Below are positions 31,785 through 49,544 of a stretch of 64,000 bases of DNA, piece after piece. Under the pieces are notes generated by a model. It was not told the origin of the DNA, searched no databases, and saw only the letters and a list, made by a program, of their open reading frames with translations. The stretch's first letter is position 1. Each line of letters opens with the position of its first letter. Source of the DNA: Roseithermus sacchariphilus (GTDB taxonomy: Bacteria > Bacteroidota > Rhodothermia > Rhodothermales > MEBIC09517); NCBI GenBank assembly GCA_003285105.1, contig CP030158.1, positions 2,456,501 through 2,520,500 of the forward strand, written 5' to 3'. A program made the translations under genes and the position numbers.

Positions 31785-31941
31785 CCCCCGACTGTGCCGA
31801 TGGCGCGCCGATCGTGCCAGGGCGTCACAGAAGGTATCGTATCAACAGCCAGACATGACGGAACGTGCGGTGGGAGCGCCCGATGCCGGAGGACCGGACC
31901 GGTTTCCTCGCGCACGCGTCGAATCCAAGGAGAGAAGGAGC

Positions 31942-33309: not shown

Positions 33310-33317
33310 AGCTTTTC

Positions 33318-33847
33318 AGCTTTCAGCGGTCAGCTTTCAGCGGTCAGCTTTCAGCGGTCAGCTTTCAGCGGTCAGCTTTCAGCGGTCAGCTTTCAGCGGT
33401 CAGCTTTCAGCGGTCAGCTTTCAGCGGTCAGCTTTCAGCGGTCAGCTTTCAGCGGTCAGCTTTCAGCGGTCAGCTTTCAGCGGTCAGCTTTCAGCGGTCA
33501 GCTTTCAGCGGTCAGCTTTCAGCGGTCAGCTTTCAGCGGTCAGCTTTCAGCGGTCAGCTTTCAGCGGTCAGCTTTCAGCGGTCAGCTTTCAGCGGTCAGC
33601 TTTCAGCGGTCAGCTTTCAGCGGTCAGCTTTCAGCGGTCAGCTTTCAGCGGTCAGCTTTCAGCGGTCAGCTTTCAGCGGTCAGCTTTCAGCGGTCAGCTT
33701 TCAGCGGTCAGCTTTCAGCGGTCAGCTTTCAGCGGTCAGCTTTCAGCGGTCAGCTTTCAGCGGTCAGCTTTCAGCGGTCAGCTTTCAGCGGTCAGCTTTC
33801 AGCGGTCAGCTTTCAGCGGTCAGCTTTCAGCGGTCAGCTTTCAGCGG
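33318..33847. repeat. Perfect 14-bp tandem array, about 38 copies
   Basis: agctttcagcggtc is repeated 37 times plus 12 nt with no mismatch that I could find. Each unit is two heptamers (agctttc, agcggtc). It starts 8 bp after the pilQ stop. No spacers, so not CRISPR. Perfect homogeneity implies recent expansion or active homogenisation. Confidence 0.98.
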
Positions 33848-33877
33848 AAGCTGCGCGCTGACCGCTGCTGGTTTTGG

Positions 33878-33933
33878 GCTTCTGGCTTCTGGCTTCTGGT
33901 TTCGGGCTGCGGGCTTCGGGCTGACGGCGTCGT
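33878..33933. repeat. Heptamer-phased repeat tract
   Basis: gcttctg x3, gtttcgg, gctgcgg, gcttcgg, gctgacg, gcgtcgt: eight consecutive heptamers, most beginning gct. It shares gcttctg with the tract at 48522. Confidence 0.8.
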
Positions 33934-33969
33934 GTAGGAACGAGCCCTTCCCCCTGGCCGCAGGCCGCA

Positions 33970-34073
33970 CAGGGGGAAGTCCCCACAGGGGGAAGGGGGT
34001 CAGACCCCGCCGCAACATCGCCATCGCCCGGAGGACTACCCCTCCGTCGCTGCGCGACACCGCCCCTTCGCAA
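33970..34073. repeat. 104-bp direct repeat, copy 1
   Basis: Begins cagggggaagtcccc and ends cgccccttcgcaa. Identical to copy 2 (34133-34236) except one A/G difference in the gtcccc(a/g)cag segment. It contains the inverted motif gggggtcagacccc. Not coding and not matched to a known element by me. Confidence 0.9.
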
Positions 34074-34129
34074 GCGGCTGGCTACTGGCTTCGGGCTGAA
34101 TGCTGACGGCTGATCGCTGAAAGCTGACC
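34074..34129. repeat. Heptamer-phased repeat tract
   Basis: gcggctg, gctactg, gcttcgg, gctgaat, gctgacg, gctgatc, gctgaaa, gctgacc: eight heptamers in unbroken phase, filling the space between the two 104-bp copies. Confidence 0.8.
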
Positions 34130-34132
34130 GCC

Positions 34133-34236
34133 CAGGGGGAAGTCCCCGCAGGGGGAAGGGGGTCAGACCCCGCCGCAACATCGCCATCGCCCGGAGGACT
34201 ACCCCTCCGTCGCTGCGCGACACCGCCCCTTCGCAA
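34133..34236. repeat. 104-bp direct repeat, copy 2
   Basis: Second copy of the 33970-34073 repeat, 103 of 104 identical. Its 3' end (ccttcgcaa) forms part of the target site of the adjacent MITE-like insertion. Confidence 0.9.
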
Positions 34237-34445
34237 ATTGACAGGGGGAGGTTTTTACAGAAAGTGGCTTTTGAGACCCATAGAGCCCTTTCGATCCGTC
34301 ATCCCCAACTCGATGGGGGATCCAGAAAACGGAGCCTGTGGACTGGCGTCCCGCCTTCTCGGAAACCGGAGGCTTCCGCAGGGACTGACGATGTCCTTTC
34401 CCTGAATGTGGTTTATGAAAACCTATCCTTGTCAACCTTCGCAAA
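34228..34445. mobile_element. MITE-like non-autonomous element with 10-bp target-site duplication
   Basis: A 198-bp element (34238-34435) is bracketed by the direct repeat ccttcgcaaa (34228-34237 and 34436-34445). Its ends are inverted: the left reads ttgacagggggaggtttt and the reverse complement of the right reads ttgacaaggataggtttt, about 19 of 26 positions matching. It is AT-richer than its surroundings and encodes nothing. Size, inverted ends and a long target duplication fit a MITE mobilised in trans, perhaps by an IS4-type transposase (that group makes duplications of about this length), but no parent element is in the window. Confidence 0.75.
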
Positions 34446-34456
34446 GGGAGGATCTG

Positions 34457-34505
34457 GCTGAGGACTACAGGCTGAGGGCTGACCGCTGACGGCTGAAAGC
34501 TCCTC
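34457..34505. repeat. Heptamer-phased repeat tract at the end of the membrane-protein gene
   Basis: gctgagg, actacag, gctgagg, gctgacc, gctgacg, gctgaaa, gctcctc: seven heptamers whose last unit overlaps the stop codon (34504-34506) of the minus-strand gene. Confidence 0.75.
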
Positions 34506-35268
34506 AAGCCGCGTCGCGCACCGAGGCCGGGGTGCTGAACCAGGGGCGATCGCGGTAGAGGAGGGTGTGGACGTACGGTTTGCGTTCCGGTTCGTGCAGG
34601 GCTTCCGAGAAGGGGCCGTGCAGCGTCCAGGTGCCGAGGGTGGTCTCGAGCGTGAGCAGGTGCCGGTGGAGGCGCCAGAGCAGCACGCTCTGGAGCATCT
34701 CGGCGAGCAGCAGGGCGGCGGTGCCGGCGAACAGCGCCAGCAGCAGCGGCCCGCTGGCCGTGAGGGGCGTCACCGCCAGATGGCCCAGCGCCAGCAGCAG
34801 CAGCAGCAGGTCGAGGTTGAGCCGGCCGAACCGGAGGGGGTGCAGCCCCTGGTGGATGTGATCGGCGACGTGCTGGAGCCGTTTCTCGGCCAGCAGCAGC
34901 CGGGGCAGGGGGCGTGCGGCCACGGCCCGCAGCGCCGTGAGGATGTAGCTGCGGTTCCAGAGGTGGTCGCACCGATGGAGGCATTGCCGGCGCTTCGCCA
35001 GCCGGTCGGCATGCCGCACGAAGGCCTGCTCCAGGCGAAGCTGCCGGAGGGTGCGGATGCTCCGGTAGATCTGAAAGACCTTGCGGCCGAAGTACCCGAG
35101 CAGCAGCAGCGCCACCAGGCCGATGGTGTGGGCTTCCGGCGTGGCCCGCTGCGTCACCAGCCAGGCTTCTCCCAGCAGCGCCCCGGCGGCCCCCAGCAAC
35201 GCCCCTCCGCAGAGGACGCGGAGCGTGCGCTGCATGCGGATCAGGGTCTGCTGGAGAGGGCTCGACAT
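34504..35268 (-). CDS. Hypothetical membrane protein
   Basis: 254 aa, two hydrophobic regions: about 17-60 (LRVLCGGALLGAAGALLGEA and HTIGLVALLLLGYFG) and about 150-195 (LDLLLLLLALGHLAV and LLLALFAGTAALLLAEMLQ). They are separated by a basic, Arg/His/Gln-rich soluble stretch (IYRSIRTLRQLRLEQAFVRH). No known family recognised. The ATG at 35268 starts MSSPLQQTLIRMQ; a longer in-frame extension to 35625 is Arg/Pro/His-rich noise. It is divergent from the M28-like gene. Confidence 0.65.
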   Translation of the reverse strand: MSSPLQQTLIRMQRTLRVLCGGALLGAAGALLGEAWLVTQRATPEAHTIGLVALLLLGYFGRKVFQIYRSIRTLRQLRLEQAFVRHADRLAKRRQCLHRCDHLWNRSYILTALRAVAARPLPRLLLAEKRLQHVADHIHQGLHPLRFGRLNLDLLLLLLALGHLAVTPLTASGPLLLALFAGTAALLLAEMLQSVLLWRLHRHLLTLETTLGTWTLHGPFSEALHEPERKPYVHTLLYRDRPWFSTPASVRDAA

Positions 35269-35326
35269 GGTGAGGGCGGGGCGCTGCGGCCGGTGGCCGG
35301 GACCGTGACGGGGCGGACGCGGGAAC

Positions 35327-35351
35327 TTGGAAAATAATTCGTATACATTTG
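35327..35351 (+). promoter_or_regulatory. Candidate Bacteroidota-type promoter
   Basis: An AT-rich island contains tacatttg (35344-35351), matching the TAnnTTTG -7 element used in Bacteroidota, with ttg at 35327-35329 as a possible -33 element. The spacing (14 nt) is shorter than usual. It would start transcription near 35358, about 120 nt before the M28-like gene. Confidence 0.35.
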
Positions 35352-35478
35352 GTTCCACGAGCCGGCAAATCGCGTTCCGATCCGGCGGTATTCGGGAAGC
35401 GGGTGGAGTATCTTGCCGGGCAGCGGGCGGGTGACCGCCCGGTTCCGCATCCCGATCCTCATCAACCCGCCCGACGAG

Positions 35479-36914
35479 ATGGTGCCGGCCCGATCGCTCT
35501 TCGTGGTGCTGCTGGTGGTGCTGGGGTGTGCCGGCGCGGGATGCGCATCGGTGGCCGTGCCCGAGGCGCCGACCGTGCCCAACCCGGCCCGGCCGGTCTG
35601 GGAGCCGCCCGCGCTGCTGGAGCATCTGCGCTTCTTCAACCAGAACGACCTGAGCGACCGGGCCACCGGAACCGTGGGCTTTGCCGGCACGGCGGCCTAC
35701 GTCGCGGCTCGCATGAGGGAGTTCCGGCTACAGCCGGTGCTCGGCTCGTCGTTCCGGGTGCTCTACCAGACCCCGCTGAACTACCCCCTGGGCGGGGTGC
35801 TGTCGCTGTCCGGTGCGGCCGATACGCTGGCCTTCTGGATGGGCGTCGACGTGCTGCCCGACGGGCGGAGTGACTCCGGGGCCGTGGCGGCGATGCGCCT
35901 GGCGCGGGTTCCGGCGTCCGCCGAGGTGGCCGGGGGGCGGCCGTGGATCCGCTGCCGGGCGCGCCGGTGGTGATGATCGAGGCGACTCGGGCCACGACGC
36001 CATACCTGGAGGCGCTGGCCCGTCAGGGCGTGCAGGCGGTGCTGGCCGTGGGGGCGCTGCGTCCGAACCCGGCCCCCGCGCCGGTCGACGGGCTGGTGGT
36101 GATGCAGATCGTGCCAGAGGCGGCGGCGCAGATCGTGAACCGATCTCCGGCCTTCCTGGAGGCCTGGCTCGCCGGCGTCGGCCCCCCGGTGCTGGCGTTG
36201 CGCGCGACCCTGCAGATGCACGTCGTGGCCGATCATCAGCCGCTGGCCGGGGCGATGAACCTGATCGGCCTGCAGCCGGGCAAGCATCCCCGGCTGGCCT
36301 CGGATCTCGTCCTCGTCTGTGCCGACCTCGACGCGCTCGGTCGCTTCGGAGGCGTCGGGGTGTTCGATGTGCGGCATATGGGGGCCGGGGCGGCGGCCGT
36401 GCTGGAGGTGGCCCGGCTCTACAGCGCGTTCGCCCGGTACTGGCCGCTGCCGGAGCGCACCATCATGTTTGCCTTCTGGTCCGGGGCCCGGGTCGGCCAC
36501 GCGGGGCTGAAGGCGTACCTCAGGAATCCACCGTGGCTGCTGGAGCGGACCCGGGCGGTGATCTATGCCGGGCTGGCGCCGGAAGACGAGCCGGCGGTGC
36601 GGGCGCTCCTGGCGGCCCACGGCCTGCCGCTGTACGTGGTGCCGGATCCGCTGCACGAGGAGGATCTGCCGCCGTTCCTGCTCCAGCCGCCGCCGGAGGT
36701 GCCGCGGCGCGCCCGGGCCGCCGCCCGGCCGGCTCCGGCGGTGTCCGAGCGCGCGCTGGTGCAACGCGCCGTGGCGGCCGCCCAGGCCATGGCCGATTCC
36801 GTCAACGTGTTGCTGTTGCGGGAAGCCATCCGCCCGGGCGGCGTCGTGCCCGTGCCGCCGGACCGCCTGCGCATCCCGGCCGAAGCGCTCCCCGCCGACG
36901 GCGCTCCCCGCTGA
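35479..36914 (+). pseudogene. M28 peptidase-like lipoprotein, frameshifted and lacking zinc ligands
   Basis: Two frames: 35479-35973 encodes a lipoprotein-type signal (SLFVVLLVVLGCAGAGC) and an N-terminal domain; 35943-36914 encodes the rest. One extra G in the run at 35932-35937 would fuse them (AEVAGGAAVDPLPGAPVVM). The fold follows M28 aminopeptidases: LVLVCADLDALG, HMGAGAAAVLEVARLYSAF, LPERTIMFAFWSGARVGHAG. The expected zinc ligands are missing, however: the H-x-D block reads CADLD, the ADDNASG block reads DVRHMGAG, and the Glu pair reads AR. So even without the frameshift the product would be a non-catalytic homologue. Confidence 0.65.
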
Positions 36915-36982
36915 CAGGGGCCGGGGTGACGCCCGGGCTCCCCGTCGTTCGTTCCGTTCGTCTTCTCCATCGCTCCCCAACC

Positions 36983-37768
36983 ATGGTTCCTGCCTGGCTC
37001 ACCGACACCGTCACCCGCGATCTCGACCGTGCGCTGCACTATACGCTGCTCTGGGGGCTCGAGGCCGTGGAGTTGCGCACGGTGGGCGGCGCCGCCGAAC
37101 GGGTGCCGTTCGTGAACGAAGCCAAGCTGCGCCGCCGCCTGGCCGAGCATGAGCTGCCGGTGGCGGCCATCGTGCCGGGGCTGTTCGAAGGGCCGGCGTC
37201 CGACCGGGCCGCGTGGATGAACGAGGTCACCGCCCTGGAGGAGACGCTGGCCTTCTGCGCACGCATTGGCTGTACGCGGGTGGTGACGTCGGCCTTCTCG
37301 GACGAGGGGCATGCACCGGCCCTGGCCGCCGAGGCCCTGCGCCGGGCGGGCGAGGCCGCTGCCCGGCGCGGCATCACGCTGGCCGTGCTGAACGAGGCCG
37401 GCATGGCCCACCCGACGGCCGCCGCCGTGGCGGAGTTGCTGGACGCCGTCGGGCATCCGGCCGTGCAGGCGGCCTGGCATCCGGCCGAGGCCCTGCGGGC
37501 CGGTGAGCCGGCCGAAACCGGCCTCGCCGCACTCGGGACACGCATCGCGCTGGTGCGCTGTAGCGACCAGGACCATCCCGGCGACGCCGGGCAGCCGGTG
37601 GAGGTCGGCGACGGTGCCGTCGGGTGGCCGGCCGTGTTGCGCCGCCTGCACGATCAGGGCTACGACGGACCCGTCAGCCTGGAGGTCCGCCGCGAACCCC
37701 GGCCCCGCACCGGCCTGCGTGACGCCACGCGCCTGATCCAGTACCTCCGCGCCGCCCGGCGACCCTGA
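36983..37768 (+). CDS. Sugar phosphate isomerase/epimerase-like TIM-barrel protein
   Basis: 261 aa of the xylose-isomerase-like/AP-endonuclease-2 superfamily: LLWGLEAVELRTVGG at the first strand, LAVLNEAGMAHP (metal-ligand Glu position) and GDGAVGWPAVLRRLHDQGYD with SLEVR at the end. The usual WDPgN metal motif reads WHPAEALRAGE and the HvKD strand reads RCSDQDH, so the metal site is unusual and activity may differ. The ATG at 36983 follows a 68-bp gap after the M28-like gene. Confidence 0.75.
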   Translation: MVPAWLTDTVTRDLDRALHYTLLWGLEAVELRTVGGAAERVPFVNEAKLRRRLAEHELPVAAIVPGLFEGPASDRAAWMNEVTALEETLAFCARIGCTRVVTSAFSDEGHAPALAAEALRRAGEAAARRGITLAVLNEAGMAHPTAAAVAELLDAVGHPAVQAAWHPAEALRAGEPAETGLAALGTRIALVRCSDQDHPGDAGQPVEVGDGAVGWPAVLRRLHDQGYDGPVSLEVRREPRPRTGLRDATRLIQYLRAARRP

Positions 37769-37839
37769 CCGGAACCGTCCCGGGGGCCTGCCGTAGAGAC
37801 GCCACCCCGCTGTTTCCCTACCACCCATCCCCGGCTGGC

Positions 37840-38127
37840 ATGGCCGTTTCCATCGAGGACGTTCGCTACATCGCGGCGCTCGCCCGCCTCCGCTTCACCG
37901 AGGCCGAGGAGCAGCGCCTGGCCGAGCAGATGAGCACGATGCTGGAGTACGTCGGGCAGTTGCAGACGCTCGACACCACCGGCGTGCCTCCCATGTCGCA
38001 CGTGCTCGACCTGGTCAACGTCATGCGGGAGGACGTCGTACAGACCCGCATCTCTCGGGAGGAGGCGTTGCGCAACGCCCCCGATGCCGACGAGGCGTAT
38101 TTCCGCGTGCCCAGGGTCATCGAGTAG
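37840..38127 (+). CDS. gatC: Aspartyl/glutamyl-tRNA amidotransferase subunit C
   Basis: 95 aa, complete GatC: SIEDVRYIAALARLRFTEAE, LNYVQQL-equivalent MLEYVGQLQTLDT, and the VMREDVVQ..SREEALRNAP tail, ending FRVPRVIE. It stabilises the GatCAB complex that converts Glu-tRNA(Gln) or Asp-tRNA(Asn) to the amidated form. gatA and gatB are not nearby. A 93-bp gap separates it from the glycan cluster. Confidence 0.95.
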   Translation: MAVSIEDVRYIAALARLRFTEAEEQRLAEQMSTMLEYVGQLQTLDTTGVPPMSHVLDLVNVMREDVVQTRISREEALRNAPDADEAYFRVPRVIE

Positions 38128-38220
38128 GCGAGGGCCGTCCACCCGGCGCAGCGCCTGGCCCGGTTCGGCGGTGCCCTGCCTCTCCCGCCTGCCCATCCGA
38201 TCCGTAATCCGCTAGCGTTC

Positions 38221-40773
38221 ATGGCTCGCCCCTCCAAACGCCGCGGCCGCGCCGCGACCCGCCCCGCCCCGCTCGTCGCTCGCGCCTCCTGGTGGGAGCG
38301 GCTGCCCGGCTCCGCCCAGCACGGGCTCTGCCTGCTGGTGCTGCTGGCGATCTCGCTGGGCTTCTTCGCCCCGCTCCACTTCTCCGGCCGCACCCTTGCT
38401 CCGGGCGATACGGTCAACTGGCGGGCCATGGCGGAATCCATGATCGCCTACGAGGAGGCGACGGGCGAGCCGGCGCTGTGGGCCACGAACGCCTTCGCCG
38501 GCATGCCGGGCTATCTCATCAAATACCCGAAGGCCGTTCCCCAGCTCGACACCGTCCCCCGGCTGCTGCGGTCGTTCCTCTGGCCGACCTCCCACTTTCT
38601 GTTTCTGCTGATCGGCACGTACCTGCTGGTCGTTTTTCTGACGGGCAATAAGTGGGGCGGGGTGCTGTCCGCCGCGGCCTACGGACTGACGACCTATCTG
38701 CCGATCATCCTCGTGGCGGGGCACAACACCAAGTTCATCGCCCTGTGTTTCGCCCCGTGGCTGGTGCTCGCCTTCGCCTACGTGTTACGGAAGCCCTCGC
38801 TACTGGCGGGGCTGTTGTTTGCCATCGCTGCGGCCGTCAACCTGCGGGCGGATCACGTGCAGATCACCTATTACTTCACGTTTCTGCTCGGCGTGTGGTG
38901 GATCGTGGAGGGCGTCGCCGCCGTGCGGGAGGGGCGCCTGGCGGCCTTCGGGCGGGCGACGGGGTGGCTGGTGCTGGGCTCGGTGCTGGCGCTGCTGATG
39001 GTGGCGCAGCCCTACCTGGCGAATCTCGAATACAAGGCCTATAGCATCCGCGGGGCCGGGCTCGGTGGGGGAGAGGGCGCGCTGGACTGGTCCTATGCCA
39101 TGCGCTGGAGCCAGGGCGTGGGGGAGCTGGTGACGCTGCTGATCGCGGATGCCTACGGCGGCGGCGGCGGGCTCTACTGGGGGCCGAAGCCGTTCACGGC
39201 CGGGCCGCACTACGTCGGCGGCGTGGTGCTGCTGCTGGCCGTGCTGGCGCTGTGGCGCCTGCCCCGGCGGGAGGTCTGGGGCCTTGGCATCGGCGGGGCG
39301 TTCATGCTGCTGTTCTCCCTGGGAGAGCACCTGCCGTTGCTCAACCGATTCATGTTCGACGTTTTTCCGCTGTTCGACGCCTTCCGCGTGCCGGAGACGT
39401 GGCTCAGCGCGGTCGCCTTCGTGCTGGCCGTGCTGGGGGGCTTCGGGCTCTACTACGTCAGCCGCCCGGCCGAGTCGCCGGACGAGGCGGCCGCCACGAC
39501 GCGGTCGGTCTACGTCGCCGCCGGTGCCGCGGTGGGCCTCGTCCTGGGGCTGGTGCTCTTCAAAGGGGTGCTGTTCGACTTCGAGCGGCCCGGCGAGGTG
39601 CAGCAGGTCATCCAGCAGGTCGTGCAGCAACAGCCGGAGCTGAGCCCGGACGATCCGCGGGTGGTGCAGTTCGCCCGGCAGGAAGTCGCCGGGCGGCAGG
39701 CGGCACGGGCCGAGCAGTTCACCGCGGACGGCTGGCGGACCCTGCTGTTTCTGGTGCTGGCCGCCGGGCTGCTGATCCTCTACCGGCGTGGCCTCGTCCC
39801 GGCCTGGGCGCTGCAGATGGGGCTGGTGTTGCTCGTGGTGATCGACCTCTGGGGCGTCGGCCGGCGCTACCTGAACGAGGATCGCCTGGCGCGGGCCGAC
39901 CGCATCGAGCAGCAGATCCCCACGTATGACTTCGACCGCTTCATCCTGAGCCGGCGCGAGGAGGCCGGCGGCCCCGGGCACTTCCGCGTGCTCTCGCTCG
40001 AAGGCGACCCGACCGTGACGGCCCGCCCCTCGTACCATTACGAGTCGCTGGGCGGCTACCACGGGGCCAAGCTCCGGCTGATCCAGGATTACTACGATCA
40101 TCTGTTCATCGACCCGAACACGGGCTCGCTCGGCGAGAACGCGCTCGACCTGCTGAACACCCGGTACGTCGTCGCCCGCGGGCCGATTCCCGGCATGAAC
40201 CCCGTCTACCGCAGCGAGCAGACCGGCCTGGTGGTGCTGGAAAACCCCGACGCGCTGCCCCGGGCCTTCTTCGTCGGCGAGGTGGAGGTGATCCCGGAGG
40301 ATGAGGCCGTGCTGGAACGCCTCCGGCAGGCAGACTTCGACCCGGCGCGGACGGCGATCCTGCACGAGCCGCTCGCGGCCCCCGTCACCCCCATCGACTC
40401 GACGAGCGTCACGGAGGTCGAGCTGCTGGCCTATGGCCCCCGTGAGATCCGGTGGCGGGTGCAGACCGATGCGCCGCGGCTGCTCGTGGTCAGCGAGATC
40501 TATTACCCCGCCGGCTGGCACGCCGCGCTCGACGGTGAGCCGGTGCCGATCCTGCGGGCGGACTACCTGCTGCGTGCCGTCCCGATTCCGGCCGGTGAGC
40601 ATACCCTGACGATGCGCTTCGACCCGCGCAGCCACACGCTGGGGGTCTGGATCTCGGCCGTCTCGACGGCGGTGGTCTACGGCGGCGTCGTGGTGCTGCT
40701 CGGGTTGGGCTGGTATCGCCGCCGGCAAGACGCTTCCATACCCGATCCCGGCGAGCCTCCGACACAGGCATGA
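38221..40773 (+). CDS. YfhO-family multi-pass membrane protein
   Basis: 850 aa with many membrane helices (for example LLVLLAISLGFFAPLHF, FLFLLIGTYLLVVFL, FTFLLGVWWIVEG) and a C-terminal periplasmic domain holding YPAGWHAALDGEPVPILRAD and PIPAGEHTLTMRFDPRS, the YfhO signature. YfhO/GT-C-like proteins are implicated in glycosylating cell-wall or lipid-linked polymers; WATNAFAGMPGYL near the first loop is also typical. It heads a tightly coupled run (ATGA overlap with the next gene), consistent with surface-glycan assembly. Confidence 0.85.
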   Translation: MARPSKRRGRAATRPAPLVARASWWERLPGSAQHGLCLLVLLAISLGFFAPLHFSGRTLAPGDTVNWRAMAESMIAYEEATGEPALWATNAFAGMPGYLIKYPKAVPQLDTVPRLLRSFLWPTSHFLFLLIGTYLLVVFLTGNKWGGVLSAAAYGLTTYLPIILVAGHNTKFIALCFAPWLVLAFAYVLRKPSLLAGLLFAIAAAVNLRADHVQITYYFTFLLGVWWIVEGVAAVREGRLAAFGRATGWLVLGSVLALLMVAQPYLANLEYKAYSIRGAGLGGGEGALDWSYAMRWSQGVGELVTLLIADAYGGGGGLYWGPKPFTAGPHYVGGVVLLLAVLALWRLPRREVWGLGIGGAFMLLFSLGEHLPLLNRFMFDVFPLFDAFRVPETWLSAVAFVLAVLGGFGLYYVSRPAESPDEAAATTRSVYVAAGAAVGLVLGLVLFKGVLFDFERPGEVQQVIQQVVQQQPELSPDDPRVVQFARQEVAGRQAARAEQFTADGWRTLLFLVLAAGLLILYRRGLVPAWALQMGLVLLVVIDLWGVGRRYLNEDRLARADRIEQQIPTYDFDRFILSRREEAGGPGHFRVLSLEGDPTVTARPSYHYESLGGYHGAKLRLIQDYYDHLFIDPNTGSLGENALDLLNTRYVVARGPIPGMNPVYRSEQTGLVVLENPDALPRAFFVGEVEVIPEDEAVLERLRQADFDPARTAILHEPLAAPVTPIDSTSVTEVELLAYGPREIRWRVQTDAPRLLVVSEIYYPAGWHAALDGEPVPILRADYLLRAVPIPAGEHTLTMRFDPRSHTLGVWISAVSTAVVYGGVVVLLGLGWYRRRQDASIPDPGEPPTQA

Positions 40774-41333
40774 GTACACCCTACACCGCCGACGCGCCCG
40801 GCGTACGCCGCCGCTACGACCTGACGCTGCGATTCATGCGCGCCTCGTTGCCGCCACCGGCGCGGCTGCTCGACCTGGGCGCGGCCAACCCGCTCTCGGA
40901 GATCATGCAGCGAGAAGGGTATAGCGTGCAGAACACTGACGTGGACCTCGACGAGCATCCAGAGGTGGTGCGTGGCGCCGACGTCGATGCCGTGACAGCC
41001 TTCGAGATTCTGGAGCACCTGGTGGGGCCGCTCAATGTGCTGAAGGCCATCACCGCCCCCCGGCTCTTTGCCACGGTCCCGCTCCGGCTGTGGTTCGCAA
41101 CGGCCTATCGCAACCCGTCCGACCCCTGGGACTGCCATTTCCATGAGTTCGAGGACTGGCAGTTCGACTGGCTGCTGGAGAAGGCCGGCTGGCGCATCGT
41201 GCGCCGGGAGAAGTGGACCAACCCGGGGCGTGGCCTCGGCCTCCGGCCGCTGCTGCGCCGGTTCACGCCCCGCTACTACGCCGTGGAGGCGGTGCGGGTG
41301 GACGGCACGGGGGAGGGGACCGCCGCCTCATGA
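40770..41333 (+). CDS. Class I SAM-dependent methyltransferase
   Basis: 187 aa. Motif I is LLDLGAANPLSEIM (about 31-44), followed by an acidic motif II (NTDVDLDE) and DVDAVTAFEILEHLVGPLNV, the motif typical of Methyltransf_11/23-type enzymes. The start overlaps the YfhO stop and its own stop overlaps the next start, so it is translationally coupled with a glycosyltransferase; probably modifies a glycan or lipid-linked intermediate. Substrate unknown. Confidence 0.8.
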   Translation: MSTPYTADAPGVRRRYDLTLRFMRASLPPPARLLDLGAANPLSEIMQREGYSVQNTDVDLDEHPEVVRGADVDAVTAFEILEHLVGPLNVLKAITAPRLFATVPLRLWFATAYRNPSDPWDCHFHEFEDWQFDWLLEKAGWRIVRREKWTNPGRGLGLRPLLRRFTPRYYAVEAVRVDGTGEGTAAS

Positions 41334-42691
41334 AACGGGTGTTGCTGATCACCTACTACTTCCCCCCGTCGGGCGGGCCGGGCGTGCAGCGGGTGCTCAA
41401 GTTCGCGAAGTACCTGCCGGCCGCCGGCTGGCAGCCCGCGGTGCTGACCGTGGCCGACGGGGCGTTCCCCGAACGCGATGCCGCCCTGCACGACGACGTC
41501 GCGCCGGACCTCGCCGTCCATCGCACGGCCTCCTGGGACCCGTTTCAATGGTACGCCCGCCTCGTCGGCCGGCCGCCCGAGCAGGCGGCTCGTCTGGGGT
41601 CGGTGCGGGGCGCGTCCGACTGGAAGGAGCGGCTCGCGGCCTGGGTGCGTGCCAACGTCTTCCTCCCCGATGCCCGCGTCGGCTGGGTGCCGTTTGCGGT
41701 GGCCGAAGGGCGCCGCTTGCTGGCCGACGGGGGCTTCGATGCCATCCTGACGTCGGGGCCGCCTCACTCGACGCATCTCACCGGCTGGCTCCTGCATCGC
41801 CAGACCGGCGTGCCCTGGCTGGCTGACTTCCGCGATCCGTGGACGGACATCAACTACTACCATGAACTGCCGCACACGGCGCTGGCCCGGCGGCTGGATG
41901 CGGCGCTCGAACGCGGGGTGCTGCGCCATGCCTCGGCCGTGACGACCGTCAGCCCGAGCTGGCAGCGGCTGCTGGCCGCGAGGACGCCGGACCGGCCCGA
42001 CGCCGTCCACGTCGTGCAGAACGGTTTCGATGTGGACGACTTCGCGGCGTCCGCAGGGGTCGAGCCGGAGGCGGATCGCTTCACGCTGACCTACGTCGGT
42101 TCGCTGTATGCCTCGCGCAATCCGGTGGTGGTGTGGCAGGCCCTGCACCGGCTCCGGGAGGAGGGCAGCCTGCCCCGCTTCCGGCTGCGGCTCGTCGGCA
42201 AGGTGGATCCCGTCGTGCGCGCCTCGCTGGCCGAGGCCGGGCTGGGCGACGTGGTCGAGGAGCCGGGCTATCGGCCGCACGACGAGGCGGTGGCGTGGAT
42301 GCGGCGCAGCCATCTGCTGCTGCTGGTGGTGGAGGCGTTCCCGCACAACGCGGGCATGATCACGGGGAAGCTGTACGAATACCTCGCCTCGGGCCGGCCG
42401 GTGCTGGGCATCGGCCCGGTGCAGGGCGATGCCGCGGCGCTGCTGCGGGCGACGGGCGGCGGCGAGATGATGGGGTATGCGGAGCGGGACCGGGTGGCGG
42501 CCTGTGTGCGGGCGCACTACGAGGCCTGGGCCGCCGGGCGGCCGCCTGCCGGGGCGCCGCCGGAGGCCCTGCGGCCGTTCACCCGCCGCCGGCAGACGGA
42601 GCGGCTGGCGGACGTGCTGAATCAGGTGATCGGAGACCCCGCGGTGTCCGTAGCGAGGCCTCCGGTGGATGCGAACGGGCTGCATGGATGA
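41330..42691 (+). CDS. Glycosyltransferase family 4-like protein
   Basis: 453 aa, GT-B fold. N-terminus RVLLITYYFPPSGGPGVQRV (Gly-rich acceptor loop), linker DFRDPWTDINYYHELP, SAVTTVSPSWQRLL, VVQNGFDVDDF, then the donor half with LTYVGSLYASRNP and the E-x7-E-like LVVEAFPHNAGMITGKLYEY. The ATG at 41330 overlaps the methyltransferase stop; a frame open from 41213 is upstream coding shadow. It adds a sugar in the surface polysaccharide encoded here. Confidence 0.85.
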   Translation: MKRVLLITYYFPPSGGPGVQRVLKFAKYLPAAGWQPAVLTVADGAFPERDAALHDDVAPDLAVHRTASWDPFQWYARLVGRPPEQAARLGSVRGASDWKERLAAWVRANVFLPDARVGWVPFAVAEGRRLLADGGFDAILTSGPPHSTHLTGWLLHRQTGVPWLADFRDPWTDINYYHELPHTALARRLDAALERGVLRHASAVTTVSPSWQRLLAARTPDRPDAVHVVQNGFDVDDFAASAGVEPEADRFTLTYVGSLYASRNPVVVWQALHRLREEGSLPRFRLRLVGKVDPVVRASLAEAGLGDVVEEPGYRPHDEAVAWMRRSHLLLLVVEAFPHNAGMITGKLYEYLASGRPVLGIGPVQGDAAALLRATGGGEMMGYAERDRVAACVRAHYEAWAAGRPPAGAPPEALRPFTRRRQTERLADVLNQVIGDPAVSVARPPVDANGLHG

Positions 42692-43758
42692 GTAGGCGGA
42701 TCTGCACGGTGGTGGGCGCCCGGCCGCAGTTCGTCAAGGCGGCCGTGGTCAGCGACGCGCTGAAGGAGGCGGGCGTGACGGAGGTGCTGGTGCACACGGG
42801 TCAGCACTACGATGCCGCCCTGAGTGCGGTCTTCTTCGACGAGCTGGGCCTGCCTGCCCCGGCGGTGAACCTGGGCGTCGGCTCGGCCGGCCACGCGAAG
42901 CAGACGGGCGCCATGATGGTCCGCCTGGACGCTTTTCTGCAGGAAGAGGCGCCGTTCGATGCGCTCCTCGTCTACGGAGACACCAACAGCACGCTGGCCG
43001 GCGCGCTCGTGGCGGCCAAACGGAGCCTGCCCCTGGTGCACGTCGAGGCCGGGCTGCGCTCGTTCGACCGCCGGATGCCGGAGGAAGTCAACCGCATCGT
43101 GACGGACCGCCTGGCCGATCTGCTGCTGGCTCCGACGCCGACGGCCGTGGCCAACCTGCGGGCCGAAGGCCTCACCGAGGGCGTCCACCGGGTCGGCGAC
43201 GTGATGCTCGATGCCACGCAGCGCTTCGCCGAGCGGGCGGCCGAGCGGGTGCCGCTGGACGCGCTGACCGGGCACGCCCCCGGCACCTACGTGCTGGCGA
43301 CCGTCCACCGGGCCGAGAACACGGACGACCCGGAGCGCCTCCGGCAGATCTTCGACGGCCTCGGGCGTCTGGACGAGCCCGTGCTGCTGCCGTTGCACCC
43401 GCGCACGCGGCGGGTGCTCGGCGGGCGGCCGCTCCCGCCCAACGTCGAGCTGCGGCCGCCGGCCGGCTACCTCGCTATGCTCACCCTCATCCGCCACGCC
43501 CGCCGGGTGGTGACGGATTCGGGGGGCGTGCAGAAGGAGGCCTACTGGCTCGGCGTGCCCTGCGTGACGCTGCGCGCCGAGACGGAGTGGGTGGAGACGC
43601 TCCACGGCGGCTGGAACCGGCTCGTCGGTGCCGATCCCGGGGCGCTGGTCGCCGCCGTGCGGCAGGCGCCGCAGGGGCCGCGCCGGCCGTTCGGGCAGGC
43701 CCCCGGCGGCGGCTCGCCGGGGCGCTGCGTGGCCTCGTTGATCCGTGCCCTCTGCTGA
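42688..43758 (+). CDS. wecB: UDP-N-acetylglucosamine 2-epimerase (non-hydrolysing)
   Basis: 356 aa. Diagnostic blocks: VVGARPQFVKAAVVSDAL at the start, HTGQHYD, VYGDTNSTLAGALVAAKRSL, VHVEAGLRSFDRRMPEEVNR, ATVHRAENTDDPERL, LPLHPRTRRVL, VTDSGGVQKEAYWLGVPCVT and TEWVETLHGGWN. It converts UDP-GlcNAc to UDP-ManNAc for surface polysaccharide. The start ATG (42688) overlaps the previous stop. Confidence 0.95.
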   Translation: MSRRICTVVGARPQFVKAAVVSDALKEAGVTEVLVHTGQHYDAALSAVFFDELGLPAPAVNLGVGSAGHAKQTGAMMVRLDAFLQEEAPFDALLVYGDTNSTLAGALVAAKRSLPLVHVEAGLRSFDRRMPEEVNRIVTDRLADLLLAPTPTAVANLRAEGLTEGVHRVGDVMLDATQRFAERAAERVPLDALTGHAPGTYVLATVHRAENTDDPERLRQIFDGLGRLDEPVLLPLHPRTRRVLGGRPLPPNVELRPPAGYLAMLTLIRHARRVVTDSGGVQKEAYWLGVPCVTLRAETEWVETLHGGWNRLVGADPGALVAAVRQAPQGPRRPFGQAPGGGSPGRCVASLIRALC

Positions 43759-43771
43759 ACATCCCCCGATC

Positions 43772-45004
43772 ATGGCTGATCGTCCCTTTCACATCCTCAT
43801 GGTCCTCGATCACCCGTTCCCTCCCGACACGCGGGTCGAGAACGAGGCGCTCTCGCTCCTGGAGGCCGGGTTCGACGTGACGGTGCTGGCCGTCGCACCT
43901 GATACGCGGCCGGCCGAAGACGGGCACCGCGGCATCCGCGTCGTGCGCGCCCGCATCCCGGCGGCGCTGCGCAACAAGATGCGTGGGCTCGTCACCACGT
44001 TGCCGTTGTTCGACGGGTACCTGGCCCGCCTGATTCCCCGGGTCCACCGGAAAAAGCCGGCCGATGCCCTCCACCTGCACGATCTCTATCTCTTCGGCGG
44101 TGGCCTGCGGGCCGGCCGGCGCCTGGGGATCCCCGTTGTGGGCGACCTGCACGAAAACTGGGTCGAAGCGCTCAAGAGTTACGCCTGGAGCACCACGTTT
44201 CCCGGCAAATACCTCGTGAACATCGAGCGCTGGGCGCGGTACGAACGAGCCTGGGTCAATGCCGTGGACCGGCTCGTGGTGGTGATCGAGGAGGCCGCCG
44301 CGCGTAACCAGGCCCTCGGCGTGCCGCCCGATCGCATCGTGGTCGTGCCCAACACCATCAAGCGCGAGGCCTTCGATCGGTACGAGGTCGATGAGGCGCT
44401 GGTGGCGCGCCTGCGATCCGAAAGCTCCCTGACGATCACCTACACCGGGACCTACGACCGTCATCGCGGCCTCGATACGGTCATCGACGCCTTACCCCGC
44501 GTGCTGGAGCAGATCCCCGACGCGCGGTTCGTCATCGTCGGGAAGGGGCGCATCACACCCGAGTTGGAGGCCCACGCCAGGCAGCGAGGCGTGCGGGATC
44601 ACGTGCGGTTCGAAGGGTGGCAGCCCCAGGCGCGGCTGAAGAGTTACATCCTCGGCAGCGATCTGTGTGTGATTCCCCACCGCCGGACAGGACACACCGA
44701 CGCGACCATCCCCCACAAGCTGTTTCATTACATGTACCTCGAGCGCCCGGTGATCGTCAGCGATTGCCCGCCGCTGAGGCGCATCGTCGAGGATGCCGCG
44801 GCCGGCCGGGTCTTTCCTGCCGAGGATGCCGGGGCGTTGGCCCGGGCCATACTGGAGCTGGCGGCGGATCCGGCTGCCAGGCGGGTGCTGGGGGCACAGG
44901 GCCGGCAGGCCGTGGTCGAGCGCTACAACTGGGACACGACCGTGCGTGGGCTCGTGGCAATGTACCGTGACCTGGCCCGGGCTGCTGCGCCGAGAAAGAC
45001 CTGA
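43772..45004 (+). CDS. Glycosyltransferase family 4
   Basis: 410 aa GT-B enzyme. N-terminal FHILMVLDHPFPPDTRVENE, then DALHLHDLYLFGGGL, VVGDLHENWVEALKSY, VVVPNTIKREAF, TYTGTYDRHRGLDTVIDALP, FVIVGKG and the donor site IPHRRTGHTDATIPHKLFHYM followed by RPVIVSDCPPLRRIVE. The ATG at 43772 is 13 bp after wecB. Likely a ManNAc- or other hexose-transferring step of the same glycan. Confidence 0.87.
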   Translation: MADRPFHILMVLDHPFPPDTRVENEALSLLEAGFDVTVLAVAPDTRPAEDGHRGIRVVRARIPAALRNKMRGLVTTLPLFDGYLARLIPRVHRKKPADALHLHDLYLFGGGLRAGRRLGIPVVGDLHENWVEALKSYAWSTTFPGKYLVNIERWARYERAWVNAVDRLVVVIEEAAARNQALGVPPDRIVVVPNTIKREAFDRYEVDEALVARLRSESSLTITYTGTYDRHRGLDTVIDALPRVLEQIPDARFVIVGKGRITPELEAHARQRGVRDHVRFEGWQPQARLKSYILGSDLCVIPHRRTGHTDATIPHKLFHYMYLERPVIVSDCPPLRRIVEDAAAGRVFPAEDAGALARAILELAADPAARRVLGAQGRQAVVERYNWDTTVRGLVAMYRDLARAAAPRKT

Positions 45005-45021
45005 TCAGAGCCCCCCGATTC

Positions 45022-46527
45022 ATGAAACCCAGGGAAGCGTCTCCAGAGCAACCGGCGCCGGCCGCCACGCCCGGGTTCTTCGCCAGCCTGCTCCGGCAGA
45101 CCAGCATCTACGCCCTGGGCAACGTCATTCTGAAAGCCAGCGGTCTGGTGCTGGCACCGCTCTACCTGAACCTGCTGACCGAGACGGCCTACGGGCATCT
45201 GGCTCTGCTCGACGCGACGGCACGGGTCGTCGTGCTGCTTGGCGGGCTCGGCGTCGCCACGGGGCTGCTGCGGTTCATGACGAGCAGCGCCCATGCCGAC
45301 ACGCACGATGCGCTGCCATTCACCGCGCTCGTGACGTCGGCCGGGATGGCTGTGCTCGTGCTGGCGCTGGTGTGGGGGCTGGCGCCTGTGCTGGCCTCGA
45401 CGCTGCTGGACGACGCCGGGGCGGCCTGGCTGATCCGGCTAATGGGGGTCTACGGGGCCTTCAAGATGATCGAGGCGATCCCGATCATGCTGTTGCGGAC
45501 GAAGGAACGCGCCGGGCTGTACGTGACGGCGACCGTCGCCGAGCTACTGGTGTTGATGGGGGGCGTCGGGCTGCTGCTCGGGGTGATGCGGCGGGGGCTG
45601 CTCGGGGTCATGGAGGCCTACGCGATCTCCGCCGGCGTGGGTACGGTCGTGCTGACGGCCGGTATGCTCATGCACGTCTCGTGGCGCTTTCGGCTGAGCC
45701 TCGTGCGGCGCCTGATCCGCTTCGGGGCGCCGCTGGTACTGGCCGCTGCCGCCTCGCTGTTCATGAACATCGGCGACCGCTACCTGCTCAAGCTATTGGC
45801 CGATGCCCGCACCGTCGGCATCTACGACTGGGCCGGCCGGCTCGGCGGGGTGCTCAACCTGTTCTTCGTGCAGAGCTTCCAGCTTGCTTTCGGCGTGCTG
45901 GGGCTGAAGTCGCTCGGGCTGGAGCCCGGCGGCGAGCGCGTCTATCGGCGCGTCTTCCGGCACTATGTCATCTGGACCGGCTGGGGCGTGCTCGGCCTGG
46001 CGCTGCTGTCGCTGGACGTGACCCGGCTGGTTTCGGCCCGGCCGGCCTACCAGGCGGCCGATGTGCTGGTGCTGCCTGTGGCCCTGGGCTTCCTGGCCTA
46101 CGGGCTTTACTACATCGTCGTCAACGTGCTCTATGCCACCGATCGCACCCGGTCGATCGCGTGGATGGTGGGCGCCGCCGCGCTGTCCAATGCCGGGTTG
46201 AACCTGATGCTCATCCCCTGGATGGGAGCGCTGGGCGCGGCCCTGTCCACCACGGCTGCCTACGGGATCTTGCTGGCGCTGACGGTTGTGGCGGCGGAGC
46301 GCCAGATCCGCGTGCGTTACCCGTGGGGCACGCTGGCGCTGGTGTTGGGGCTCGTGCTGGGGCTGTACCTGCTGGGACGGCCCGCGGCGGATTGGTCGAC
46401 GTGGGCGCGCCTGGGGTGGCGTGGTCTGCTGATCCTGGCTTACCCGGTGCTGATCGTGGCACTGCGGCTCTACACACCGGCCGAGCTACGGCAGGGCTGG
46501 AAGCGGGTGCGAGCACTGTTCGGGTAG
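45022..46527 (+). CDS. Polysaccharide flippase (MATE-like/PST family)
   Basis: 501 aa with 12-14 predicted membrane helices. The N-terminus SLLRQTSIYALGNVILKASG and YLNLLTETAYGHLALLDATA match oligosaccharide flippases (Wzx/RfbX type), as do FMNIGDRYLLKLLADARTVG and the later GALGAALSTTAAYGILLAL. It exports lipid-linked glycan units built by the preceding genes. It starts 17 bp after the glycosyltransferase stop. Confidence 0.87.
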   Translation: MKPREASPEQPAPAATPGFFASLLRQTSIYALGNVILKASGLVLAPLYLNLLTETAYGHLALLDATARVVVLLGGLGVATGLLRFMTSSAHADTHDALPFTALVTSAGMAVLVLALVWGLAPVLASTLLDDAGAAWLIRLMGVYGAFKMIEAIPIMLLRTKERAGLYVTATVAELLVLMGGVGLLLGVMRRGLLGVMEAYAISAGVGTVVLTAGMLMHVSWRFRLSLVRRLIRFGAPLVLAAAASLFMNIGDRYLLKLLADARTVGIYDWAGRLGGVLNLFFVQSFQLAFGVLGLKSLGLEPGGERVYRRVFRHYVIWTGWGVLGLALLSLDVTRLVSARPAYQAADVLVLPVALGFLAYGLYYIVVNVLYATDRTRSIAWMVGAAALSNAGLNLMLIPWMGALGAALSTTAAYGILLALTVVAAERQIRVRYPWGTLALVLGLVLGLYLLGRPAADWSTWARLGWRGLLILAYPVLIVALRLYTPAELRQGWKRVRALFG

Positions 46528-46626
46528 CTCAGGCCTCGCCGCCGGGCGCGCAACCGATCCGCATGAACAAACCGCCGGATCGTGGCGTGCAACCCCCCGC
46601 TCCATCACCATCCCCCTCCCGCCGCC

Positions 46627-47607
46627 GTGCCCACGTTCTGGAACCGGCTGCGTCGCACCACGCGCAGCACCTCGACCCCGTCGCCCTTCGGCGAGACGCC
46701 GGAACGGCGGGGCCTCGTGATCACCGTCTGTTTCCTGATCTCGGTGCTCATCTGGTTCTCCTTCACCATGCAGGAGCGCTATCCGAACGAGCTGGAGATG
46801 CCCGTTCGCGTGGTGAACCTGCCACCGGATCAGGCCCTGCGCAGCCTGCCGCCCGATCGGGTCCGCCTGCGGGTCGAGGCCGAGGGCTTCCAGTTGCTGC
46901 GGCTGCGCTACAACCCGCCGCCGCTGATGCTGGACGCCTCGCGCCCGGAGATCAACCTGGCCGAGCAGGCCCGGATGCAGCTGCCCAACGACGTGCGCAT
47001 CGAGGCCGTCAGCCCCCAGGCCGTTACGCTGGTCACCGAGCCGCGCCTGCAGCGCCGCATCCCCATCGCGCTGCGCGCCCACCTGGAGACGCCCCCGTCC
47101 TACGTGCTGCTCGAAACCTACATCGACCCGGATTCGGTGACGGTCTCGGGCGCGGAGTCGCTGGTGCGGGACCTCACGGCCTGGCCCACCGTGCGGGTCT
47201 ACAGGAGCGGGGTGATGGATACCCTGCGCCTGACCGTTCCGCTGGCCGATACCCTGGCCCCGCTCATTGAGCGCAGCCCGGAAAGCACGCTCCTGACGGC
47301 TATCGCCCTGCCGTTCACCGGGGCCGAGCGCCGCCTGCCCGTGCAGATCGAGGGCGCCCCGACCAGCGAGCAGATCGTGGACCTGGAGCAGAACACGGTG
47401 CTGGTGCAGTACTCCGTGCTGCTGTCCGACTACGAGGCGTCGCTGACGTCCGATGAGTTCGAGGTCACCGTCTCCTACGATCAGATCCGGTCGGACACGA
47501 CGGGGCGGGTGACGCCGCAGGTGCACCTGCCGCCGGGGTTGTCGATCCGCAACGTGCGGGTGATCCCGCCCACGCTGGGCTATTACAACGTGCTCATTGA
47601 GAACTGA
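46627..47607 (+). CDS. YbbR-domain (CdaR-like) membrane protein
   Basis: 326 aa. Membrane helix at about 35-52 (LVITVCFLISVLIWFSF), then extracytoplasmic YbbR-like beta domains: NELEMPVRVVNLPPDQALRS, VRLRVEAEGFQLLRL and IPIALRAHLETPPSYVLLET. CdaR proteins of this type regulate the diadenylate cyclase CdaA in Firmicutes; no cyclase gene is beside it, so the role here is open. GTG 46627 (VPTFWNRLRR) is preferred to the in-frame ATG at 46582, whose His/Pro-rich extension looks non-coding. Confidence 0.7.
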   Translation: MPTFWNRLRRTTRSTSTPSPFGETPERRGLVITVCFLISVLIWFSFTMQERYPNELEMPVRVVNLPPDQALRSLPPDRVRLRVEAEGFQLLRLRYNPPPLMLDASRPEINLAEQARMQLPNDVRIEAVSPQAVTLVTEPRLQRRIPIALRAHLETPPSYVLLETYIDPDSVTVSGAESLVRDLTAWPTVRVYRSGVMDTLRLTVPLADTLAPLIERSPESTLLTAIALPFTGAERRLPVQIEGAPTSEQIVDLEQNTVLVQYSVLLSDYEASLTSDEFEVTVSYDQIRSDTTGRVTPQVHLPPGLSIRNVRVIPPTLGYYNVLIEN

Positions 47608-47627
47608 GGGGGCACGGGAACCGGCGC

Positions 47628-48521
47628 ATGATCGACCTGCTCCTCGCCGTGGCGTGTAGCCTGGCCATCGGGGTGATCTTCAAGGTGGCGGCACGGCAGG
47701 GGACGGACCGCCTCGCCCTGCTGACGGTCAACTATGCCGCGGCGCTGCTGCTGGCTGCCGCGGCGCTGTACGCGGCGCCCCCCTCGGCGACGGCCGTGGC
47801 CCCGCCGCCCGGCCTCGTGGCCCTCGGTATGACGACCGGCGCGCTGTTCATCGCCGGCTTCTTCACGCTCGCCTGGGCGACCGAGGTGGCCGGGCTGTCG
47901 CTGGCCGTGGCGGTGATGCGGGTGTCTGTGGTGATCCCGTTTCTGGCGTCGTGGCTGATCTGGGACGAGAGGCCGACGCCGGCGCAGGGGCTCGGGCTGA
48001 TCGTGGCAGGCATCGCCTTCTTCCTGATCGCTCGCCGGGAGCCGGTTGCCCCCTCTGCGGACGTAGCCCGTCGGCCGTCTGCCGATGCGCCCGGTCGGGT
48101 CGTGCTGGTGCTCGGGCTGCTGTTTCTGGCCGGTGGGCTGGTGGACGTGTCGATGAAGACGTTCGATGAGGTCTATGCCGCCGTGGCCGAGCGCGATGCG
48201 TTCCTGGTCTTCGTCTTCGGGGTGGCCTTCACGATCGGGCTGGGCCTCGTCCTGCGCCGCGGGGTGCGGATGGGGCTCTGGCCGACGCGGGCCGCGTGGC
48301 TCTGGGGGGCCGGGCTGGGGCTGGTCAACTACGGCTCGGCCGTGTTCATCCTGCGGGCCATCCGCCAGCTCTCCGGGCCGGTCGTGTTTCCGGTGAACAA
48401 TGTGGCGCTCATGATCGGCGCGGCGCTGCTGGGGGTGCTGGTCTGGCAGGAACGCCTGTCGCGGCGCAACTGGGCCGGGCTCGGCCTGGCCGCCGTGGCC
48501 CTGGTCCTGCTGGGCCTCTGA
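47628..48521 (+). CDS. EamA/DMT-superfamily transporter
   Basis: 297 aa with about ten membrane helices in two halves; typical DMT phrases include FTLAWATEVAGLSLAVAVMR, VIPFLASWLIWDERPTPAQG (end of first half) and NNVALMIGAALLGVLVWQER followed by the last helix. A metabolite or drug exporter; substrate not predictable. It begins 20 bp after the YbbR gene and ends right at the start of the 48522 heptamer array. Confidence 0.85.
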   Translation: MIDLLLAVACSLAIGVIFKVAARQGTDRLALLTVNYAAALLLAAAALYAAPPSATAVAPPPGLVALGMTTGALFIAGFFTLAWATEVAGLSLAVAVMRVSVVIPFLASWLIWDERPTPAQGLGLIVAGIAFFLIARREPVAPSADVARRPSADAPGRVVLVLGLLFLAGGLVDVSMKTFDEVYAAVAERDAFLVFVFGVAFTIGLGLVLRRGVRMGLWPTRAAWLWGAGLGLVNYGSAVFILRAIRQLSGPVVFPVNNVALMIGAALLGVLVWQERLSRRNWAGLGLAAVALVLLGL

Positions 48522-48738
48522 TTCTGGCTGCTGGCTTCTGGCTGCTGGCTTCTGGCTGCTGGCTTCTGGCTGCTGGCTTCTGGCTGCTGGCTTCTGGCTG
48601 CTGGCTACGGGCTTCTGGCTACGGGCTTCTGGCTACGGGCTTCTGGCTACGGGCTTCTGGCTACGGGCTTCTGGCTACGGGCTTCTGGCTACGGGCTGAC
48701 GGCTGACGGCTTCTAGCTCGTGGCCTGCCAGCTTTCAG
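48522..48738. repeat. Heptamer-phased repeat array, 31 heptamers
   Basis: Six copies of the 14-mer ttctggctgctggc (48522-48605), a 7-nt linker tacgggc, six copies of ttctggctacgggc (48613-48696), then tgacggc x2, ttctagc, tcgtggc, ctgccag, ctttcag, all in one unbroken 7-bp phase. It begins one base after the stop of the transporter gene and its last units (ccagctttcag) echo the 33318 array. Confidence 0.97.
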
Positions 48739-48908
48739 AAATAATTGAAACCCGTATGGGCGCCTGACGTTAGCAGGGTGATTCGGGCGGGCCGGTTGTG
48801 GCGGACCCTGCCGGGGGCGCGCCATCGGATGGATCGCCAGGACCAGGACGGACGGCGAAGGCACGTCCGTTCGCTGTATCTGTACCAGCCATCGACCTCG
48901 AAATCTTG
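48739..48908. other. Remainder of the 387-bp gap before the membrane-protein gene
   Basis: aaataattgaaacccgtatg (48739-48758) is the only AT-rich patch and may contain a promoter for the following genes. The rest is GC-rich with no recognisable site. Confidence 0.3.
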
Positions 48909-49544
48909 ATGAAAGGATGGGGGCGCGACGGGTCCGGGGCGATGTATGCCGAGACGCCCAACGGCATCTTCACGTCGTCCGGCGTCTGGTTTCACGTGAC
49001 CGAGGCCGCGCTGGAAGGCTATGCCGGTCCGGTGCTGGCCCACGAGCCGCTGCCGGTGCTGCTGGCGCGGTCCGAGCGGTGGCTCCGGTCCGCGCAGACG
49101 CTGGCGGTGTGGGCGCTGCCGCTGCTGCTGGTGCTGGTCCCGCCCCTGTCGGCCGTGCTGGCGACGCTGACGCTGTTCGTGGGCTGGCGGGCGTTGAGCC
49201 CGGCCTTCACGAGCCGGGTGGCCGACGCGGTGCTGCAGGCGCTCGACCTGGTGTGGCTCCAGGGAGCCTACTACGTTTTCGTGCTCAGCATCTTCGCCGA
49301 GCGCGGGCAGCTGGCGCTGGTTGGCATCGGCCTGGCCGGGTTTGTGCTGCTGCGCTGGGGCCTCGTGGACCGGCTCGCGCAGCCGCTGGTGCGGCGCATC
49401 TGGGCGTCTCTGTTTCCGCTGCCCGTTGCCGATCAGGTGCTGCGCGGCTTCATCATCCGCGCCGCCCTGGCCCACGGGCTGTCGCTGCCTCACCTGGACC
49501 GCATGGAGGAGGCCATCCGCCGCCGCCTCGGCCGTTCGTCGTGA
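48909..49544 (+). CDS. Hypothetical membrane protein
   Basis: 211 aa. An N-terminal soluble part (GAMYAETPNGIFTSSGVWFH, then HEPLPVLLARSERWL) is followed by membrane helices at about 60-98 (TLAVWALPLLLVLVPPLSAV) and about 115-150 (AYYVFVLSIFAERGQLALVG), and a basic C-terminal tail with DRMEEAIRRRLGR. No family recognised. The ATG at 48909 is chosen because the upstream frame (to 48798) is low-complexity. The phosphatase gene follows by 39 bp. Confidence 0.65.
   Translation: MKGWGRDGSGAMYAETPNGIFTSSGVWFHVTEAALEGYAGPVLAHEPLPVLLARSERWLRSAQTLAVWALPLLLVLVPPLSAVLATLTLFVGWRALSPAFTSRVADAVLQALDLVWLQGAYYVFVLSIFAERGQLALVGIGLAGFVLLRWGLVDRLAQPLVRRIWASLFPLPVADQVLRGFIIRAALAHGLSLPHLDRMEEAIRRRLGRSS

Follow-up and report, generated by a model that had tools for sequence, protein, structure and literature searches.

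A GCT-anchored heptamer array at the end of a transporter gene in Roseithermus sacchariphilus and its relation to gene-end repeats across the genome

Passages of PMC4679880 describe heptamers as the most abundant of the longer simple repeats in most bacterial genomes and leave the number seven unexplained; heptanucleotide long simple sequence repeats in prokaryotes were treated by Mrazek et al. 2007, as cited in parts of PMC4679880 and PMC4692102, and satellites in prokaryotes are surveyed in PMC6749651. The array that we analyze here resembles these long simple sequence repeats, to the extent that those passages characterize them, in that its 7-nt unit is repeated in tandem, between genes and dispersed over the genome, and differs from them in that three positions are fixed in its family and four vary within an array, the unit classes are ordered, and copying seems to proceed mostly in 14-bp steps. 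TAACTGA repeats are located between genes in Beggiatoaceae, Cyanobacteria and some Bacteroidetes, and differ between Cyanothece strains by indels in 7-nt steps, according to the relevant sections of PMC4679880. As portrayed there, they share with our family the intergenic heptamer arrays and the occurrence in Bacteroidetes, and their rotation ACTGATA has the letters CTGA in common with GCTGANN (PMC4679880). However, in the same sections they consist of one invariant unit and for the most part precede start codons in the genome from Beggiatoaceae (PMC4679880), whereas GCT-anchored arrays vary at four letters and adjoin stop codons; neither TAACTGA nor a rotation of it is found among the units of the array at 48522-48724. 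The GGGAATC and GGGGA(C/T)T repeats of Xanthomonas and Nostoc are also heptamers, non-coding and near stop codons, many of them at most 50 bp away, but they are described, in the portions of PMC4692102 concerned, as G-quadruplex formers preferring four units; REP sequences are named there as well. In our array GGG occurs once per 14 nt, that is, only in every second unit, and in one block only, and a GGGNATC unit with closely spaced G-tracts is absent from it. REP/BIME elements with a RAYT transposase are intergenic, near stop codons and hairpin-forming. At the level of the family, GCT arrays are like them in being intergenic, near stops and hairpin-forming, and some GCT arrays, though not that at 48522-48724, are mixed with palindromic blocks; they are unlike them in that the stem is made of heptamers and the genome is without a Y1 transposase. 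No description of the GCT-anchored array family was found in the open-licence literature on heptamer repeats and on Rhodothermales/Rhodothermaceae. We regard the array as a known type of bacterial intergenic heptamer repeat, unusually expanded, whose form, with the GCT anchoring, the order of the units and the expansion by 14, is out of the ordinary.

The window, i.e., the whole stretch of 64,000 nucleotides that was analyzed, belongs to a genome of one contig (4,807,988 bases). Direct reading and parsing give 29 in-phase heptamers at 48522-48724, each with GGC or AGC at its end, and the first base of the array follows immediately after the stop codon of an ORF that matches Pfam EamA (42.7 bits against a cut-off of 28.2). 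The original prediction had counted 31 heptamers; its two blocks of six 14-mers and the single 7-mer between them, with the odd 7-nt step, are borne out (Table 1), and four of the six trailing heptamers that it placed in phase are so, the last two (CTGCCAG CTTTCAG, 48725-48738) having the core out of phase and containing AGC, which is GCT on the opposite strand. The tandem 7-nt units are beyond chance: within the window GGCTNNNGGCTNNNGGCT is matched 28 times as compared with 0.09 expected from 100 shuffles, and 25 of the 28 lie inside the array. Along the array 24 NCTG/NCGG-type units are followed by two GACG units and then by two others, an order that fits that of the family described below. 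A search for a promoter or terminator at the array yielded nothing, and no Rfam family matched 33000-49200 at E up to 1. Elsewhere in the window, an 18-bp repeat of 12.2 copies (99% matches) is found at 10535-10753 within a predicted gene (10331-11911).

Table 1. Coordinates of the array behind the EamA-like transporter ORF and of its sister arrays (window positions).
Feature	Position	Strand
TGA stop codon of EamA-like transporter ORF (47628-48521)	48519-48521	+
TTCTGGCTGCTGGC x6 = 12 heptamers	48522-48605	+
TACGGGC, lone heptamer; moves the 14-mer register by one heptamer	48606-48612	+
TTCTGGCTACGGGC x6 = 12 heptamers	48613-48696	+
TGACGGC TGACGGC TTCTAGC TCGTGGC, four more in-phase heptamers	48697-48724	+
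First two heptamers of 48697-48724, giving GCTGACG units (GANN class)		+
GCCAGCTTTCAGAA, short inverted arm, 11/14 positions complementary to TTCTGGCTGCTGGC (counted by eye)	48727-48740	-
Sister array, 76 units, (GAAA GACC)n, 4 nt past stop codon of ORF 31777-33309	33314-33845	-
Sister array with GCT on +, immediately behind the - array (inverted pair)	33850-33926	+
Palindrome-rich block separating heptamer arrays	33938-34077	+
Sister array between two block copies	34081-34129	+
Second copy of palindrome-rich block	34128-34236	+
Sister array reaching into stop codon of - strand ORF with end at 34504	34457-34505	+

The array is one of many in this genome. The pattern (GCTNNNN)x4+GCT has 1390 matches (666 and 724 on the two strands), as against 39 (9+30) for its reversed control; a strand bias, for which a narrow search had given 20 of 20 matches on the + strand, was dropped, since these were only 5 sites and the wider pattern is divided as above. 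Arrays of at least 4 cores number 35 in evenly spaced 640 kb, which by extrapolation gives perhaps about 260 in the whole genome. Moreover, all 15 strong period-7 segments of an array-blind 464-kb sample (window included) have a GCT or AGC core, and the strong segments at other periods in that sample number 0 at period 8, 1 at period 9 and 3 at period 6. When chains of five trinucleotides in a row were counted over 640 kb for all 64 trinucleotides, period 7 gave 102 and periods 5, 6, 8, 9, 10 and 11 gave 2, 16, 3, 9, 3 and 16, respectively. The heptamer register is thus real and genome-wide.

For placement we used 65 arrays, i.e., those of all sampled stretches, window included, after overlapping out-of-phase readings had been dropped. 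All 65 are intergenic according to a simple codon-based gene caller, whose start codons are less certain than its stops, and random placement was genic in 0.845 of 20,000 draws; a coding role was ruled out on this basis, with the same reserve about starts. ORFs that cross heptamer arrays, such as 48296-48706, which runs through the array behind the EamA ORF, are probably not genes, a point of use to annotators. The median distance from an array to the adjacent stop codon is 7 nt (n=37) compared with 86 nt to the adjacent start codon (n=39; p=1e-4). In a separate place, the sampled stretch L053, three similar heptamer arrays (10498-10553, 12162-12203 and 14679-14720) are each followed by near-identical sequence (CAACCTTCAGTCC...GGTATGTTTGGCGCA), and are perhaps upstream regions of a repeated gene.

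These data bear on the foremost rival explanation, namely that the array is a neutral or selfish minisatellite, whose heptamers would arise and spread through recombination and slippage, be tolerated in intergenic DNA alone and bring the cell no benefit, an explanation that we weigh as a serious possibility without favoring it. Plain slippage and drift predict equal variation at the seven positions; however, in 43 strong segments (those longer than 300 nt being excluded from the averages) the identity of a base to that in the next unit is 0.92-0.94 at the GCT positions as compared with 0.72, 0.79, 0.59 and 0.61 at the other four. The unit classes are ordered as well: NCTG/NCGG-type units stand on average ahead of GANN units in 27 of 34 two-class arrays, with the reverse or no such order in 7 (binomial p 8e-4; 0/2000 shuffles as extreme). 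Additionally, in 20 of the 25 co-directional gaps that hold arrays the stop is closer than the start, which also speaks against that explanation. In its favor, the array is absent from the ortholog loci read in relatives: 60 relatives were compared, none closer than the same order, and 24 of them have an EamA transporter match, but at the 13 EamA ortholog loci examined in same-order relatives no array follows the stop codon (0/13). A scan of genome contigs brought up one EamA ortholog, in a Rhodothermales MAG, at the same place as in G008 and with no array there, and at the ortholog locus L037 a different heptamer run (CCCCGTT) lies farther downstream. As far as this sample of 13 loci goes, the array is lineage-specific. 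Copy number is also hugely variable, as a minisatellite would have it, with 1390 matches here versus 0 to about 100 per genome in the relatives and in a sample of the phylum, and, as shown below, unit order is not tuned for folding.

The original prediction held that the heptamer rather than the 14-mer is the unit that matters, and the register of seven does stand; the step of copying, however, is another matter. In arrays of 6 to 40 units the fraction of identical pairs is 0.146 for neighboring units and 0.491 for units two apart, compared with 0.241 for either after shuffling, and the excess reappears at lags 4, 6 and 8. Among 41 arrays of at least 8 units, lag 2 scores best in 18, lag 1 in 3 and lag 3 in 2, no lag attaining at least 0.5 in the other 18. 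Because units two apart are alike and neighbors differ, copying goes mostly by 14 bp while the register stays at 7 bp, and arrays seem to gain copies mainly as pairs of heptamers. Phase breaks are rare, with six junctions to a further same-strand GCT pair within 35 nt that are not multiples of 7, and two of these six are 6-nt units within L057; hence, multiples of 7 are not strictly kept throughout the arrays of this genome. The array at L057:12904-14049 is very long, with about 160 units, mostly (GAAG GAAA)n, interrupted by these two phase-breaking units.

The five-core GCT pattern is present in 18 of the 60 relatives and in 112 of 296 phylum-sample genomes, and the spacer letters differ by lineage: G005 has GCTGANN, G006 has GCT followed by [A/G/T]T[C/T][A/G], and G215 and G219 have GCTTTAR-like units. 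A binding-site array, in which a DNA- or RNA-binding protein recognizes GCT every 7 nt and keeps the register constant, would explain the fixed core at fixed spacing with free letters between, as well as the recurrence of the core with other spacers in other genera of the phylum sample. Nevertheless, the self-complementarity of RGCT accounts for the core without any protein, the candidate protein is hypothetical, and control counts point to other heptamer cores in some genomes, so that we consider this explanation unlikely. In those counts the reversed control (TCG every 7 nt) is high in G007 (65/75) and G318 (88/110), and also in G019 and G046; therefore some arrays are built on other cores, and the GCT core is not found everywhere. 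Weaker intergenic heptamer text with a different, GGTCGANG-like core was also seen at window 4143-4187 and at L018:2811-2871.

The RNA of the coding strand at 48519-48760 has a predicted energy of -107.7 kcal/mol (z -4.35; 0/200 shuffles as good), in a predicted fold that is closed by the first units past the stop codon and the inverted arm at 48727-48740. The antisense RNA of the same segment has z -0.88 and the coding-strand DNA z -4.84. The coding-strand fold is strong because two GGCU copies can join by G-C and G.U pairs. Over 55 folded arrays the GCT strand folds better than the complement, but its z is modest (median -1.41 versus -0.59; p 5e-4). We also considered whether the order of units is tuned for folding and rejected this, as the median z against random unit order is near 0 (Wilcoxon p 0.29), and the array at 48522-48724 itself, at z +2.2, folds worse than random order. 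The fold follows from the core and does not prove selection. On the predicted energies, this array probably folds into an RNA hairpin at the end of the EamA gene.

Hairpins are more compact in the relatives, where arrays frequently make up one half of an inverted repeat and shorter paired arms give near-perfect hairpins. A stem score of at least 14 is attained in 13 of 29 GCT arrays of relatives (20 loci), the top shuffle reaching 11, and a score of at least 12 in 22 of 53 loci (G005, 6/18; G006, 5/14; G008, 7/8; G031, 4/13). G005, which has the same GCTGANN units as the Roseithermus genome, carries compact AGC-loop-GCT hairpins. Locus-specific covariation of the arms was tried as a further sign and set aside as weak: arms exchanged among loci match nearly as well as the true partners do (e.g., mean 13.2 vs 14.6 in G008), and because swapping costs so little the complementarity is largely generic. 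In the Roseithermus genome a near-perfect stem (score at least 14) was found near none of 62 arrays examined, 3 long arrays being excluded, and adjacent inverted pairs within one gap are arranged -+ in 8 cases and +- in 3. The inverted end of the array itself and the hairpins of the relatives tie it to hairpins at gene ends.

Some arrays of this genome occur together with a palindrome-rich block of about 148 nt (CCCTTCCCCCTGG...CGCAAGGGGAGGATCTG), which is present at 72 places, alternates with heptamer arrays, and is numerous in G010 (29 matches) and G022 (19 matches), relatives that belong to one family. At L064:860-2180 seven copies of the block stand in tandem at about 167-bp spacing with short linkers and with a heptamer array at either end. 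These flanking arrays, and the seven tandem blocks at one locus, would suit a REP/BIME-like composite element mobilized by a transposase. We consider such an element improbable here: the array at 48522-48724 is without an adjacent block, the blocks being neighbors of other arrays, and the Y1 transposase (PF01797) has 0 matches in the genome, although the same search was positive in 5 of 14 control genomes. A second composite, with divergent GCTGANN arrays around a conserved center like GAAGCTGCGCGACGAGCACCACCGTGTCAAGCCTGCC, is found at L046:12094-12335, L048:19531-19703 and L055:17551-17694. Finally, an intrinsic transcription terminator of the EamA gene would fit the position directly behind the stop codon and the strong coding-strand fold, but is very improbable given 0 terminator-like sites in 48300-49000 (0.6 expected in shuffles), a fold with no T run after it, and 26 stop-adjacent arrays of which 11 have GCT on the strand of the gene and 15 have it on the opposite strand.

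Given these alternatives, the array is best read as a member of the genome-wide GCT-anchored gene-end family and as a heptamer hairpin with an expanded left arm, a reading to which we give an even chance. Against it weigh the near-perfect stems missing from the 62 arrays examined here, the untuned unit order, the modest GCT-strand z over 55 arrays, the weak covariation of arms in relatives and the 11-to-15 split of GCT strands next to stops. The ancestral state may have been a short inverted pair of heptamer arms, a form still found in other Rhodothermales, and one arm would have been lengthened in this lineage by slippage or unequal recombination, so that symmetry was lost. Since RGCU is self-complementary, completely so as AGCU and by way of G.U pairs as GGCU, every unit could pair with every other one; two heptamers looped out together, having two cores, could fold back and a single heptamer, with one core, could not, by which 14-bp steps would be favored. 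REP elements slow 3' exonucleases through 3'-end hairpins. The array might similarly act as a 3'-end hairpin on the transporter mRNA that slows 3' exonucleases, without a gene-specific role; equally, it may persist as near-neutral, self-propagating intergenic DNA. The genome of Roseithermus would thus appear to represent a lineage where these elements have grown longer and become asymmetrical.

More broadly, we speculate, with considerable doubt, that these arrays belong to a phylum-wide class of intergenic elements made of heptamers, in which a self-complementary RGCT core is the sole constant and the spacers are lineage-specific, so that every arm could pair with every other, and which would serve at gene ends as a generic zipper of RNA or DNA and not as a hairpin particular to each locus, here run away into arrays growing in 14-bp steps, because two cores are the minimum able to fold back. 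As the core is fixed and self-complementary, the spacers vary freely, the unit classes are ordered and related genomes carry compact hairpins, the family makes slippage, folding and selection separable. If the zipper reading is true, the bacterial excess of 7-nt repeats would have a structural cause in this phylum.
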